Source: a virus. Taken from it: a stretch of DNA of 30,892 nucleotides. Positions 5,943-30,892 of the stretch are shown here, one piece after another (the first letter of the stretch is position 1; each line of letters opens with the position of its first letter). A model generated the notes under the pieces. It was not told the origin of the DNA. It did no database searches and saw only the letters and a list, made by a program, of their open reading frames with translations. A program made the translations under genes and the position numbers. The DNA is taken from positions 1-30,892 of IMG/VR virus record IMGVR_UViG_3300048790_000108, one strand, 5' to 3'.

Positions 5943-6740
5943 TCACCTTGATCTTACCCATGCCTTGATCTGGCCGGCGCCCATGCAGACGGGGCAGGCG
6001 CCTGTGTGCCCGCTGTCGCCCATGATCTGACCGCCGCCGCCGCAGCGGCCGCAGGCCTTGCCTGTGGTGGCCAGGTTGCGCGGCTCGCGCTTGCGCGTAG
6101 CGGGCTTGGCTGTTTCAGTTAGGGTGTCGGGATCAGTCTGGTCCTGGCCGTCCTGCACCGCCTGCTGGCGCTGGAAGCGCATGTCCTCGGCAGCCTTGAC
6201 GGCATCGCGCTCGGCCTGCGCAGCCTCCTGCAGAAGCCGATCCATCTCGGCCTCGGCCAGCTCCGGCGCCGGGGGAGCCGCGGCATCCTGGAAGATTTGT
6301 GGCTTCCTGCGGGCGGGAATCTTCACCGGATCACTGGGGCCAGGTGTGGGGGCTGGGGCTTCTCCGGTAGCGATCTCCCCGGTGCGGCCAGCTTCGAGGT
6401 CCGCAGCGAACTGATCCTGAATGTCAAGCTCTCCAGCGTAAGCCTTAACCTTGGCAGACTGATGGGATGCCAATCCGTAATCGAGCGCGTGAGTGTTGGG
6501 ATCTCCGAGAGGAGGCTTGACAGCTCCAGCGGGAGCGCCCTTCGCAGGCCAATCACCGTTCCGCTTCATCACCTTCATTTCGCCGTCAGTGATAATTGTG
6601 ACTTTGCGCGCCGCCGCAGCCGCAGGGAGAATAGCCTGAGCCATGAGCTTACCGATCGGGCCGGTGGAGTTGATGATAAAGTCGCCGTCGTCAAGAATCA
6701 CGGTGAGAGCGGGTTTTACAGATTCGATTTCTTGGGTCAT
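5943..6740 (-). CDS. Hypothetical protein with C-terminal DnaJ-type zinc motif, 265 aa
   Basis: Start at 6740 (MTQEIESVKPALTVILDDGD) overlaps the previous TGA (ATGA). Residues 10-60 look like a compact alpha/beta domain. Residues 110-200 are long, charged and probably coiled (EAEMDRLLQEAAQAERDAVK), with proline-rich linkers. The last 30 residues contain CGRCGGGG and CPVCMGAG, the paired C-x2-C-x-G-x-G repeats of DnaJ/HSP40 cysteine-rich domains, one zinc site here instead of two. The first 11 residues equal those of the upstream gene (see duplication). The zinc motif is visible; its role is unknown. Confidence 0.7.
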   Translation of the reverse strand: MTQEIESVKPALTVILDDGDFIINSTGPIGKLMAQAILPAAAAARKVTIITDGEMKVMKRNGDWPAKGAPAGAVKPPLGDPNTHALDYGLASHQSAKVKAYAGELDIQDQFAADLEAGRTGEIATGEAPAPTPGPSDPVKIPARRKPQIFQDAAAPPAPELAEAEMDRLLQEAAQAERDAVKAAEDMRFQRQQAVQDGQDQTDPDTLTETAKPATRKREPRNLATTGKACGRCGGGGQIMGDSGHTGACPVCMGAGQIKAWVRSR

Positions 6741-7021
6741 ATCAGCCTTGTACGTCCAGATTTTAGTGGTTCCGAAAATGGCGATGTTTTGAAGGCCGAA
6801 TCCTTGATTCGTATCCCCCAGCAAAGCGGTCGTGAATGGTCACAACCAGGGCGCTCGCAATTCTGATTGTGAAACTCCGCGCAAGGACATACGCCGCCAC
6901 GCAAGGAACAAAACTCAGGCTTAACGTGATCCGCGTGCGGGCCTGTATCTCCAGCGTGGTCGTCAAACCAGCGGGCCATGTCGTCAGCGGCGGGTTTTAC
7001 GGATTCGATTTCTTGGGTCAT
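6737..7021 (-). CDS. Cysteine-rich hypothetical protein, 94 aa
   Basis: Starts at 7021 with MTQEIESVKPA, the same N-terminus as the next gene. A middle region (CSLRGGVCPCAEFHNQNC, then CDHSRPLC) has seven cysteines and several histidines, suggesting metal binding. The C-terminus is basic. It begins two bases after the previous stop and is coupled to the next gene by ATGA. I read it as one product of the local duplication at 6708-7530, with a different body fused to a shared start. Confidence 0.6.
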   Translation of the reverse strand: MTQEIESVKPAADDMARWFDDHAGDTGPHADHVKPEFCSLRGGVCPCAEFHNQNCERPGCDHSRPLCWGIRIKDSAFKTSPFSEPLKSGRTRLI

Positions 7022-7233: not shown

Positions 7234-7283
7234 CTCCGACTCCGTTCCATGGCAATTTTTACGGATTCGATTTCTTGATTCAC
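7230..7283 (-). CDS. 17-codon hybrid mini-ORF at a duplication junction
   Basis: GTG at 7283 overlaps the upstream TGA (GTGA) and the frame runs MNQEIESVKIAMERSRR to a TGA that overlaps the next ATG. The first nine residues copy the start shared by the genes at 7021 and 6740; the last residues copy the end (ERSRR) of the gene at 7507-7731. It is therefore a fusion scar. It may still be translated, keeping ribosomes coupled along the operon, but a peptide function is unlikely. Confidence 0.5.
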   Translation of the reverse strand: MNQEIESVKIAMERSRR

Positions 7284-14329: not shown

Positions 14330-14542
14330 TTACTGCCATACATCTTGTGGGTCGGCCAAATAAGCGAACGGGGCCACCCTGACTTCCCCTTCAAGATCAA
14401 ACGGATTCGTCTTGCAGTGCTCTTTGAACTTCTCTACGGCTTCCTGACCAGAATCCGCGATAACCCGCATTGCACAAAGACGGGCGCCATCGCCTGGAGG
14501 CTGAATCGTAAAGCTGACGCGGTAATAATGCGCCTTGACCAT
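14330..14542 (-). CDS. Hypothetical protein, 70 aa, first gene of the leftward operon
   Basis: MVKAHYYRVSFTIQPPGDGA starts at 14542 behind an AAGGAG site 8 bases upstream; the longer frame to 14650 would run through the tRNA-like element and is rejected. Beta-strand-like N-terminus then a helix (IADSGQEAVEKFKEHCKTNP). Position suggests an early-translated gene, but no family is recognised. The mRNA leader before it carries the tRNA-like structure. Confidence 0.65.
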   Translation of the reverse strand: MVKAHYYRVSFTIQPPGDGARLCAMRVIADSGQEAVEKFKEHCKTNPFDLEGEVRVAPFAYLADPQDVWQ

Positions 14543-14561
14543 TATGCGACTCCTTCTTTGC

Positions 14562-14688
14562 TGCGCGGACCGTGGCAGGAATTCGAACCGACGACCCTCT
14601 CCGTATCTGGGTCCCTCCTTCGGGTAGCGACCCCCAAGAAGATTTTCCAACGGAGCCGCTCTACCACTGAGCTACACTGGCCCGCGCA
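14562..14688 (-). ncRNA. tRNA-like element with expanded anticodon arm
   Basis: The minus strand has a canonical D-arm (GCTC...AGTGGTA...GAGC), a T-loop TTCGAAT and, at the ends, a 13-base-pair helix pairing 14688-14675 with 14574-14562 (one bulged A). The middle is not a normal anticodon arm: CTCCG (14655-14651) pairs with CGGAG (14603-14599), enclosing about 47 bases. If a 40-base segment (14644-14605) were removed, a 7-base loop TTGGAAA would remain. The T-stem has a mismatch, the acceptor end is irregular and no CCA is encoded. So it is either a tRNA-derived pseudogene, a tRNA with an unusual insertion or a structured leader; amino-acid identity cannot be assigned. Confidence 0.55.
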
Positions 14689-14695
14689 TATTGGG

Positions 14696-14723
14696 ATAGT
14701 AGCATGAGTGGGTTTGTTTGCAA
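14696..14723 (-). promoter_or_regulatory. Candidate leftward promoter for the whole operon
   Basis: On the minus strand a TTGCAA (14723-14718) is followed by 16 bases and TACTAT (14701-14696). The expected start is near 14689, one base before the terminal helix of the tRNA-like element, so the transcript would begin almost flush with that structure. Sigma-70-like scoring is by eye. Confidence 0.5.
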
Positions 14724-29177: not shown

Positions 29178-30892
29178 ATGCAATCCTTGGGTTTGGACTT
29201 CGAGACGTTTTCCGAAATAGACCTGAAAAAATCAGGCCTGCACAACTACGCCACGCATCCCTCCACCGGCATTCACTGCTTCTCTTACGGCCCTGATTCC
29301 GCCCACGTCAAGACCTGGGTGGAAGGCGAGCCTTTCCCCCAAGACCTCGCAGATCACATTGACCAGGGTGGCATCATCACCGCATGGAACGCTCAATTTG
29401 AGCTTGCCATCTGGAACCTCTGCGCCGTCCACCGCTATGGATGGAAGCCTCTCCCGATTTCCCAGGTCCGCTGTTCCATGGTCAGAGCTTACGCGATGGC
29501 CCTGCCCGGCGCGCTGGAGGATGCTGCGCCGGCGCTTGGCGTAGACCAGCGCAAGGACGCCGAGGGCCATCGGATCATGCTGCAACTGTCCAAGCCGAAG
29601 AAGGACGGCACACTCTGGCGCCGCACTCCCGAATCGCTCGACAAGTTCCTTGCCCTCTACACTTATAACGCGCAGGACGTGCGCACGGAGCTGTCCTGCC
29701 TCGACAGGTTGATGGAACTGTCCCCGAGCGAATGCGCCCTCTGGGAACTGGACTACAAGATCAACAACCGCGGCGTCATGTGCGATCTCGGTAGCGTGGA
29801 CAAGGCCGATCTTATAATTCAGTCTGAGCAGAAGCGGTTGAACGCCGAGATGCTGAAGGTGACCGGCGGCGCGATCAGCTCCTGCAGTGAAGTGCAAATG
29901 TTGACAAAGTGGATCAGGTCTCAGGGTGTTGAGATTGACGGCCTGGCCAAAGCGGACGTGTTGAATGCGCTGGCCGGAAACGACTATTACGAGGTTATCG
30001 AGAACGAAGCTGGAGAAGCAATCGAAGTCATTCCTCCAGGGATGAAACTCCCGCCAGCAGTCCGTCGTGCTCTTGAGCTGCGCCAGGAGGCCGCCAAGAG
30101 CGGCACAGCGAAGTTGGTCGCCATGCGAGAGAAGGCATCTGAGGATGGCCGCATCCGCAACATGCACCAGTACCATGCCGCGTCTACCGGACGGTGGGGA
30201 GGCCGTGGAGTTCAGCCCCAGAATTTTTTCAGGGGCAGGCCGGGGACCACATTTGAGGATGTAGAGGCGATGTTCTCGATGCTGGACGATAAGGAAAGGC
30301 TTGACCTGTTCTATGGACCGGCTATGGATGCGATCTCCGACTGCCTCCGTGGAATGTTGGTTGCTGCCGAAGGAAATGAACTTGTTGCCAGCGACTTCTC
30401 GGCCATCGAGGCTCGCGCCCTGGCGTGGCTGGCCGGGCAGGAATCGGTTCTTGAAATATTTCGCACTCACGGCAAGATATACGAACATGCGGCGGCAAAT
30501 ATTTACCATATCCCGATCGAAGATGTCACGAAGGACCAGAGACAGCGAGGTAAGGTGATAATTTTGGCCTGTGGATTTGGAGGTTCTACTGGAGCCTTTC
30601 AATCTATGGCTCGAAACTACAACGTCAAAGTTTCCGATGAGGAAGCGTTGGAAATCGTGAAGGCATGGCGTGCGGCCAACAAGCACATCGAAAACTACTG
30701 GTATGCCCTTGAAGAAGCCGTCCTCGGCGCCATGCGCTCCGGCGGGGTCCATTACGCCGGTCCCGCAGGTCGCGCAGTGAAATTCCGCAAGTCCGGCTCC
30801 TTCCTGTGGGCTCTGCTCCCCAGCGGTCGCGCTCTCTGCTACCCCTATCCCGAACTCAGGATGGTCATGACTCCTTGGGGCGAGGAGAAGGA
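29178..30892 (+). CDS. Family A DNA polymerase (5' part, truncated by window edge)
   Basis: Replicative phage polymerase of the PolI type. ATG at 29178 starts MQSLGLDFETFSEIDLKKSG, where D7-F-E9 is the exonuclease DxE motif. Further on, SDFSAIEARALAW (catalytic D406) is polymerase motif A and RGKVIILACGFGG (K459) motif B. The gene continues past 30892, so motif C is not visible. About 571 residues are present. It is the last recognised gene of the replication block and starts 22 bases after the DUF2815 stop. A 506-codon open frame on the opposite strand here is only a shadow. Confidence 0.95.
   Translation, partial: MQSLGLDFETFSEIDLKKSGLHNYATHPSTGIHCFSYGPDSAHVKTWVEGEPFPQDLADHIDQGGIITAWNAQFELAIWNLCAVHRYGWKPLPISQVRCSMVRAYAMALPGALEDAAPALGVDQRKDAEGHRIMLQLSKPKKDGTLWRRTPESLDKFLALYTYNAQDVRTELSCLDRLMELSPSECALWELDYKINNRGVMCDLGSVDKADLIIQSEQKRLNAEMLKVTGGAISSCSEVQMLTKWIRSQGVEIDGLAKADVLNALAGNDYYEVIENEAGEAIEVIPPGMKLPPAVRRALELRQEAAKSGTAKLVAMREKASEDGRIRNMHQYHAASTGRWGGRGVQPQNFFRGRPGTTFEDVEAMFSMLDDKERLDLFYGPAMDAISDCLRGMLVAAEGNELVASDFSAIEARALAWLAGQESVLEIFRTHGKIYEHAAANIYHIPIEDVTKDQRQRGKVIILACGFGGSTGAFQSMARNYNVKVSDEEALEIVKAWRAANKHIENYWYALEEAVLGAMRSGGVHYAGPAGRAVKFRKSGSFLWALLPSGRALCYPYPELRMVMTPWGEEK

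Follow-up and report, generated by a model that had tools for sequence, protein, structure and literature searches.

Locus and structure of the element

The window, meaning the whole stretch of DNA analysed, is a virus record of 30,892 bases which carries the terminase and replication genes of a tailed phage (PHROG/Pfam). A tRNA-like element of 127 nt lies on its minus strand, followed by a block of genes that is plausibly one transcript. The features of the element and of its immediate surroundings are as follows.

14562-14688, minus strand: whole tRNA-like element (Rfam tRNA, 23.9 bits; homologues L027, L122 and L123-125; covariance model R1)
14675-14688, minus strand: 5' strand of the terminal helix, TGCGCGGGCC(A)GTG; outer GCG invariant in all four lineages
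14658-14672, minus strand: D arm GCTC-AGTGGTA-GAGC, invariant
14651-14655, minus strand: 5' strand of the lower anticodon stem, CTCCG; compensatory changes at four of five pairs
14614-14642, minus strand: hairpin within the expanded arm, loop GTCGCTA at 14631-14625 (MFE fold)
14599-14603, minus strand: 3' strand of the lower anticodon stem, CGGAG, pairing with CTCCG
14575-14598, minus strand: variable region AGGGTC and T arm GTCGG-TTCGAATT-CCTGC, invariant
14562-14574, minus strand: 3' strand of the terminal helix, ending in GCGCA, without CCA
14696-14723, minus strand: possible promoter TTGCAA-16 nt-TACTAT, placing the transcript start at the terminal helix; weak, 8 of 12
14550-14555, minus strand: Shine-Dalgarno sequence AAGGAG (from sequence)
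14330-14542, minus strand: 70-aa ORF without PHROG or Pfam match, ATG 19 nt after the element

The terminal helix (14688-14675 with 14574-14562) comprises 13 bp with a single bulged A, and the stem CTCCG/CGGAG encloses 47 bases, against about 23 to 52 in the homologues. These parts, the D arm and the T loop had been described in an earlier note made from the letters alone, and all are present in the minus-strand sequence. For the T arm this description stands only in part, as only 4 of the 5 stem pairs form, a C.U mismatch interrupting the stem in the middle, and the loop is 8 bases long.

The Rfam tRNA model spans the element end to end, leaving about 46 surplus bases in the anticodon loop, at 23.9 bits against a cut-off of 29 (cmscan; E value 0.012 for 501 bases and 4,227 families, about 1e-4 when converted to the tRNA model alone and the whole window). 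The original description, of an element that derives from a tRNA, has its anticodon arm enlarged and heads a gene block, is upheld. At the Rfam gathering score the element had no match, and no group I or II intron was found. Plain ARAGORN reported no tRNA at the element and no tmRNA with a tag reading frame. With introns allowed, it read the element as tRNA-Ser(GGA) with a 40-base insert; after deletion of 40 bases it called tRNA-Ser(GGA) without an intron.

A promoter had also been proposed, with its -10 at 14701-14696. The hexamer TACTAT does stand there, but the candidate matches the consensus at only 8 of 12 positions, which is equalled at 4.8% of the positions of the window.

Elsewhere in the window, three 32-base direct repeats (6709-6740, 6990-7021 and 7252-7283) are 78-97% alike and spaced by 281 and 262 bases. 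A 506-codon open frame without PHROG or Pfam match lies on the minus strand at 29232-30752, just past the plus-strand replication genes.

Homologues and covariation

Pattern scans of 2.9 million viral contigs yielded homologues in three further lineages, L027, L122 and L123-125. At least 119 stretches came from a scan for D and T arms with excessive spacing; one of them, L027, is plainly the same element, and L122 was added by a tighter pattern. Only five viral contigs (L027, L122, L123, L124 and L125) matched an 18-base T-arm pattern, and all five also have the D arm, the paired stem and the GCGC helix. L123, L124 and L125 are one phage lineage, and the family, with the element of the window, consists of four distinct sequences. 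No further member was found among the viral contigs by a looser T-arm pattern, none in 257 Gb of genomes from bacteria and archaea by two patterns, and none by an exact pattern of D arm plus insert. In blastn searches, annotated phages and plasmids gave only short matches, mostly to ordinary tRNA D arms, and contained no homologue; these negative results refer to exact patterns or blastn, and more divergent members may exist. Two unannotated blastn matches were rejected as normal-sized tRNAs. The adjacent 70-aa ORF led to a single hit, L002, which was rejected as a chance match of 14 residues, and a 234-aa ORF led to no relatives. No description of the element was found in the open-access literature, subscription papers lying outside the search.

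The phages concerned are not close. TerL, at about 23% identity, is the only protein that the window shares with L122 and L123-125; no shared protein is detectable with L027, and the relationship between L027 and L123-125 is a distant one. In spite of this, the four sequences agree letter for letter in D arm, variable region and T arm, and the GCGC-capped terminal helix is common to all four lineages. Every base needed for the tertiary contacts of a tRNA is retained (U8-A14, G15-C48, G18G19, C13-G22-G46 and U54-A58; alignment, by eye). The upper part of the arm differs in sequence and length, the elements measuring 104-133 nt and the arm of L124 being much shorter. Each homologue has a predicted hairpin in the expanded arm, again of differing sequence and length.

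The lower anticodon stems of the four sequences read CTCCG/CGGAG, CTGCA/TGCAG, CCAAG/CTTGG and CTCCG/CGGAG. All are 100% paired. The earlier note had named beforehand, as grounds for refuting it, relatives with the same insert whose stems lacked compensatory changes; double changes of this kind were found at four of the five pairs. The whole-structure covariation score was 0.262, compared with 0.109 for shuffled data (0 of 500 shuffles reached 0.262) and at most 0.093 for slid controls. Covariation, which with four sequences is suggestive rather than overwhelming, is seen only in the anticodon stem and a few terminal-helix pairs.

Unconstrained RNAalifold recovered the outer terminal, D and anticodon helices. 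The folding z-score was -2.9 for the element of the window; single-sequence z-scores were weak for L122 and L124, and the MFE fold of L027 does not retain the D arm. In constrained folds of all four sequences, the hairpin AGGGUCG/CGA..UCCU comes out about 3 kcal/mol more stable than the tRNA-like T arm, contrary to the fold first proposed. The T-arm stretch never varies, so that the comparison of sequences cannot decide between the two. The energy model leaves out tertiary contacts between the D and T loops; these could favour the tRNA-like T arm, and the bases required are present. The element may thus take an L-shaped fold.

Function of the element

The D arm, T loop and variable region of the family lie in tRNA register, in which 4/7, 5/7, 1/7 and 2/7 acceptor pairs form in the four sequences (scripted). 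A good acceptor stem is missing in three of the four, and that of L027 pairs fully when the register is shifted as in the covariation analysis. The terminal helix exceeds an acceptor stem in length and runs beyond position 73 into the GCGC clamp. No member encodes CCA, whereas the tRNAs neighbouring the L027 element do. A 7-base loop with U33 is absent and no version has a usable anticodon loop; the best junctions differ among the four members, and no single one gives a normal U33 loop in all of them. Poor acceptor pairing, a helix running past position 73, the lack of CCA and the lack of a common restoring junction argue against a working tRNA. A functional class I tRNA, with a 7-bp acceptor, CCA or a free end after position 73 and a 7-base anticodon loop, was accordingly rejected. 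Translation through the element was rejected as well, the frame being open in the window (by eye) and in the L124 record and stopped in L122 (by eye). The element appears to be a maintained structure, and neither an ordinary tRNA, nor an intron-bearing tRNA, nor a decaying pseudogene.

The surroundings differ among the lineages. In the window, L122 and L123-125 the terminal GCGCA stands exactly 19 nt before an ATG, and the short ORFs that follow (70, 71 and 94 aa) look unrelated. The L122 element heads a short minus-strand gene group flanked by plus-strand genes. In L123-125 a gene ends just upstream, so that a transcript need not begin at the element. The L027 element lies inside a cluster of 34 tRNAs, between tRNA-Asp and tRNA-Glu; no ORF stands behind it, and tRNA-Glu begins about 10 nt after it. 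The distance to terL is 12 kb in the window, about 54 kb in L027 and about 1-2 kb in L122 and L123-125. In the available sequence of the records, no partner gene common to the phages was seen.

Tentatively, and with a confidence a little below even, the element is interpreted as a phage-borne noncoding RNA that mimics the body of a tRNA. The parts that are fixed are those read by tRNA-binding host enzymes, and the parts that are lost are those needed for aminoacylation and decoding. The selected part would be the elbow formed by the D and T loops, since the elbow is what host enzymes such as RNase P and the T-loop modification enzymes recognise. The RNA would bind a host factor of this kind without entering translation, as a decoy or as a scaffold displaying the variable arm. 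The absence of a common phage gene beside the element fits a partner among host proteins, and a free RNA processed from different transcripts would cover all four contexts. In the window the element probably doubles as the 5' leader of the minus-strand mRNA, from which it may be cut or whose end it may protect. A more far-reaching version, which we regard as speculative and rather unlikely, is a phage-specific class of tRNA-scaffold noncoding RNAs. In these the fixed elbow would dock on a host tRNA enzyme in order to hijack or block it, the GCGC-clamped helix would replace the aminoacylated end, and a freely evolving hairpin payload would take the place of the anticodon arm.

The main rival, still on the unlikely side but a serious contender, is a cis-acting 5' leader, whose tRNA-like fold would cap the 5' end of the mRNA, stand in position for the ribosome binding site and stabilise the message, or control translation of the next ORF, through a tRNA-related protein, in the manner of ThrRS at the E. 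coli thrS operator. The constant 19 nt between GCGCA and ATG fits such a leader equally well, the weak promoter of the window would start a transcript at the terminal helix, and the element of L122 heads its gene group. A leader protecting or regulating the mRNA, as first suggested for the window, is thus possible in three of the four lineages, but not in general. A purely cis role does not cover L027, which has a tRNA gene and no ORF behind the element; the ORFs elsewhere look unrelated, and the gene ending just upstream in L123-125 is also unfavourable. The compact spacing may itself be ordinary, as other expanded phage tRNAs stand about 19-36 nt before ORFs.

It is improbable that the element is a tRNA gene whose short intron-like insert is removed to yield a working tRNA, even though ARAGORN reads tRNA-Ser(GGA) in the window once 40 bases are ignored and, in other phage tRNAs, leaving out an insert of 41-56 bases after position 28 gives back a perfect anticodon arm. 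The members have no common junction with a U33 loop, and their anticodons would differ or be absent. The acceptor is mismatched in three of the four and the T stem is mismatched, CCA is lacking, the arm of L124 is much shorter, and Rfam detects no group I or II intron.

A tRNA pseudogene in decay, which recombination may have spread, would account for the mismatched acceptor and T stems, the missing CCA and the unclear anticodon, and expanded tRNA-like genes of KVP40 have been deposited as pseudo-tRNAs. This reading, which the earlier note had entertained as a degraded tRNA, is largely refuted and very doubtful, since the relatives have different yet paired anticodon stems, with compensatory changes, and identical D and T arms across unrelated phages. 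Least probable of all is a DNA-level element (a cruciform for replication, packaging or recombination) borrowing a tRNA gene, for which the long GC-rich inverted terminal helix and the proximity to terL in L122 and L123-125 would speak, but which is at odds with the distances of 12 and about 54 kb in the window and L027 and leaves the conserved loop bases of tRNA tertiary folding unexplained.

Few tRNA mimics act outside translation. The present family is conserved among phages, its stems covary and its boundary is defined; it can be expressed and directly tested for what it binds. Structured RNAs are hidden in phage genomes by tRNA finders and by the label 'pseudo-tRNA'.

Comparison with known systems

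The earlier note knew of no phage tRNA with so short an insertion, which proved mistaken: dozens of phage tRNA-like genes carry inserts of 25-60 bases. Inserts of 41-56 bases between positions 28 and 29 occur in L028, L036, L037, L042, L050, L060, L072/L094/L152 (KVP40), L090, L103, L105, L107 and others; they resemble tiny introns or an additional arm. Nearly all tRNAs of this group would read ANN codons (U36, A37), and a hairpin with CAGCAA or CTGCAA after it recurs in many of the inserts. A second type of insert at 28/29 (L042, L047, L080 and L103) has GTTACT near its 3' end and lacks the CAGCAA motif. In 18 of 79 expanded tRNAs the anticodon arm becomes perfect once the insert is disregarded, where mixed halves would lead one to expect 3.2. 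The KVP40 example, deposited as tRNA-Pseudo-3, is kept in 30 Vibrio phage records. Inserts with GGTGAAGGACC or a close variant (L004, L021, L035, L038, L040, L098, L106, L111 and L118) mostly have no junction restoring the anticodon arm, yet pairing in the acceptor and T stems of these genes is perfect. L014, L065, L075, L089, L109 and L113 have in common a conserved, solitary element that is likewise tRNA-like: it is enlarged by about 48 bases, GGGGTCGCGCCCC or a close variant among them, its acceptor and T stems pair perfectly, it encodes no CCA and, in the loci checked, no tRNAs lie nearby.

YrlA (RF02553) belongs to the Y RNAs; it is noncoding and includes a domain resembling a tRNA (PMC7790460). 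In bacteria, Rsr binds the lower stem of Y RNAs (PMC4726728), and Y RNAs have been reported or proposed in phages (PMC12282133). The element resembles YrlA at the level of layout, both being noncoding with a tRNA-like domain. Identity with YrlA was rejected because the window has no match to RF02553 at its threshold of 69 bits, permissive scans of the element, L122 and L123 gave none, and no rsr gene (TROVE domain) was found in the six records of the family, which may be fragments. The tRNA-Other of Bacillus cereus is a non-translational pseudo-tRNA inside a larger RNA (PMC3399842). Compared by description, it resembles the element, which is likewise tRNA-like and would likewise not serve translation and lie within a larger RNA, but it is chromosomal and lies beside a genomic island.

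With class I tRNA (RF00005) the element shares the D arm, the variable region, the T-loop sequence and the order of the arms. It differs in the missing 7-base anticodon loop, the extended and mostly mismatched acceptor helix, the mismatched T stem, the 8-base T loop and the absence of CCA. The E. coli thrS operator is a tRNA-mimicking mRNA operator that binds ThrRS. In operators of this type, as in the element, a fold resembling a tRNA closely precedes a ribosome binding site; unlike these operators, the element adjoins no recognised synthetase gene, and one homologue has no ORF behind it. Like the element, tRNA-Pseudo-3/4/5 of KVP40 and the other expanded phage tRNAs have an anticodon arm enlarged by about 40-55 bases. 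Where they were examined, their acceptor and T stems are good, and in many the anticodon arm becomes normal once the insert is left out; neither holds for the present family.
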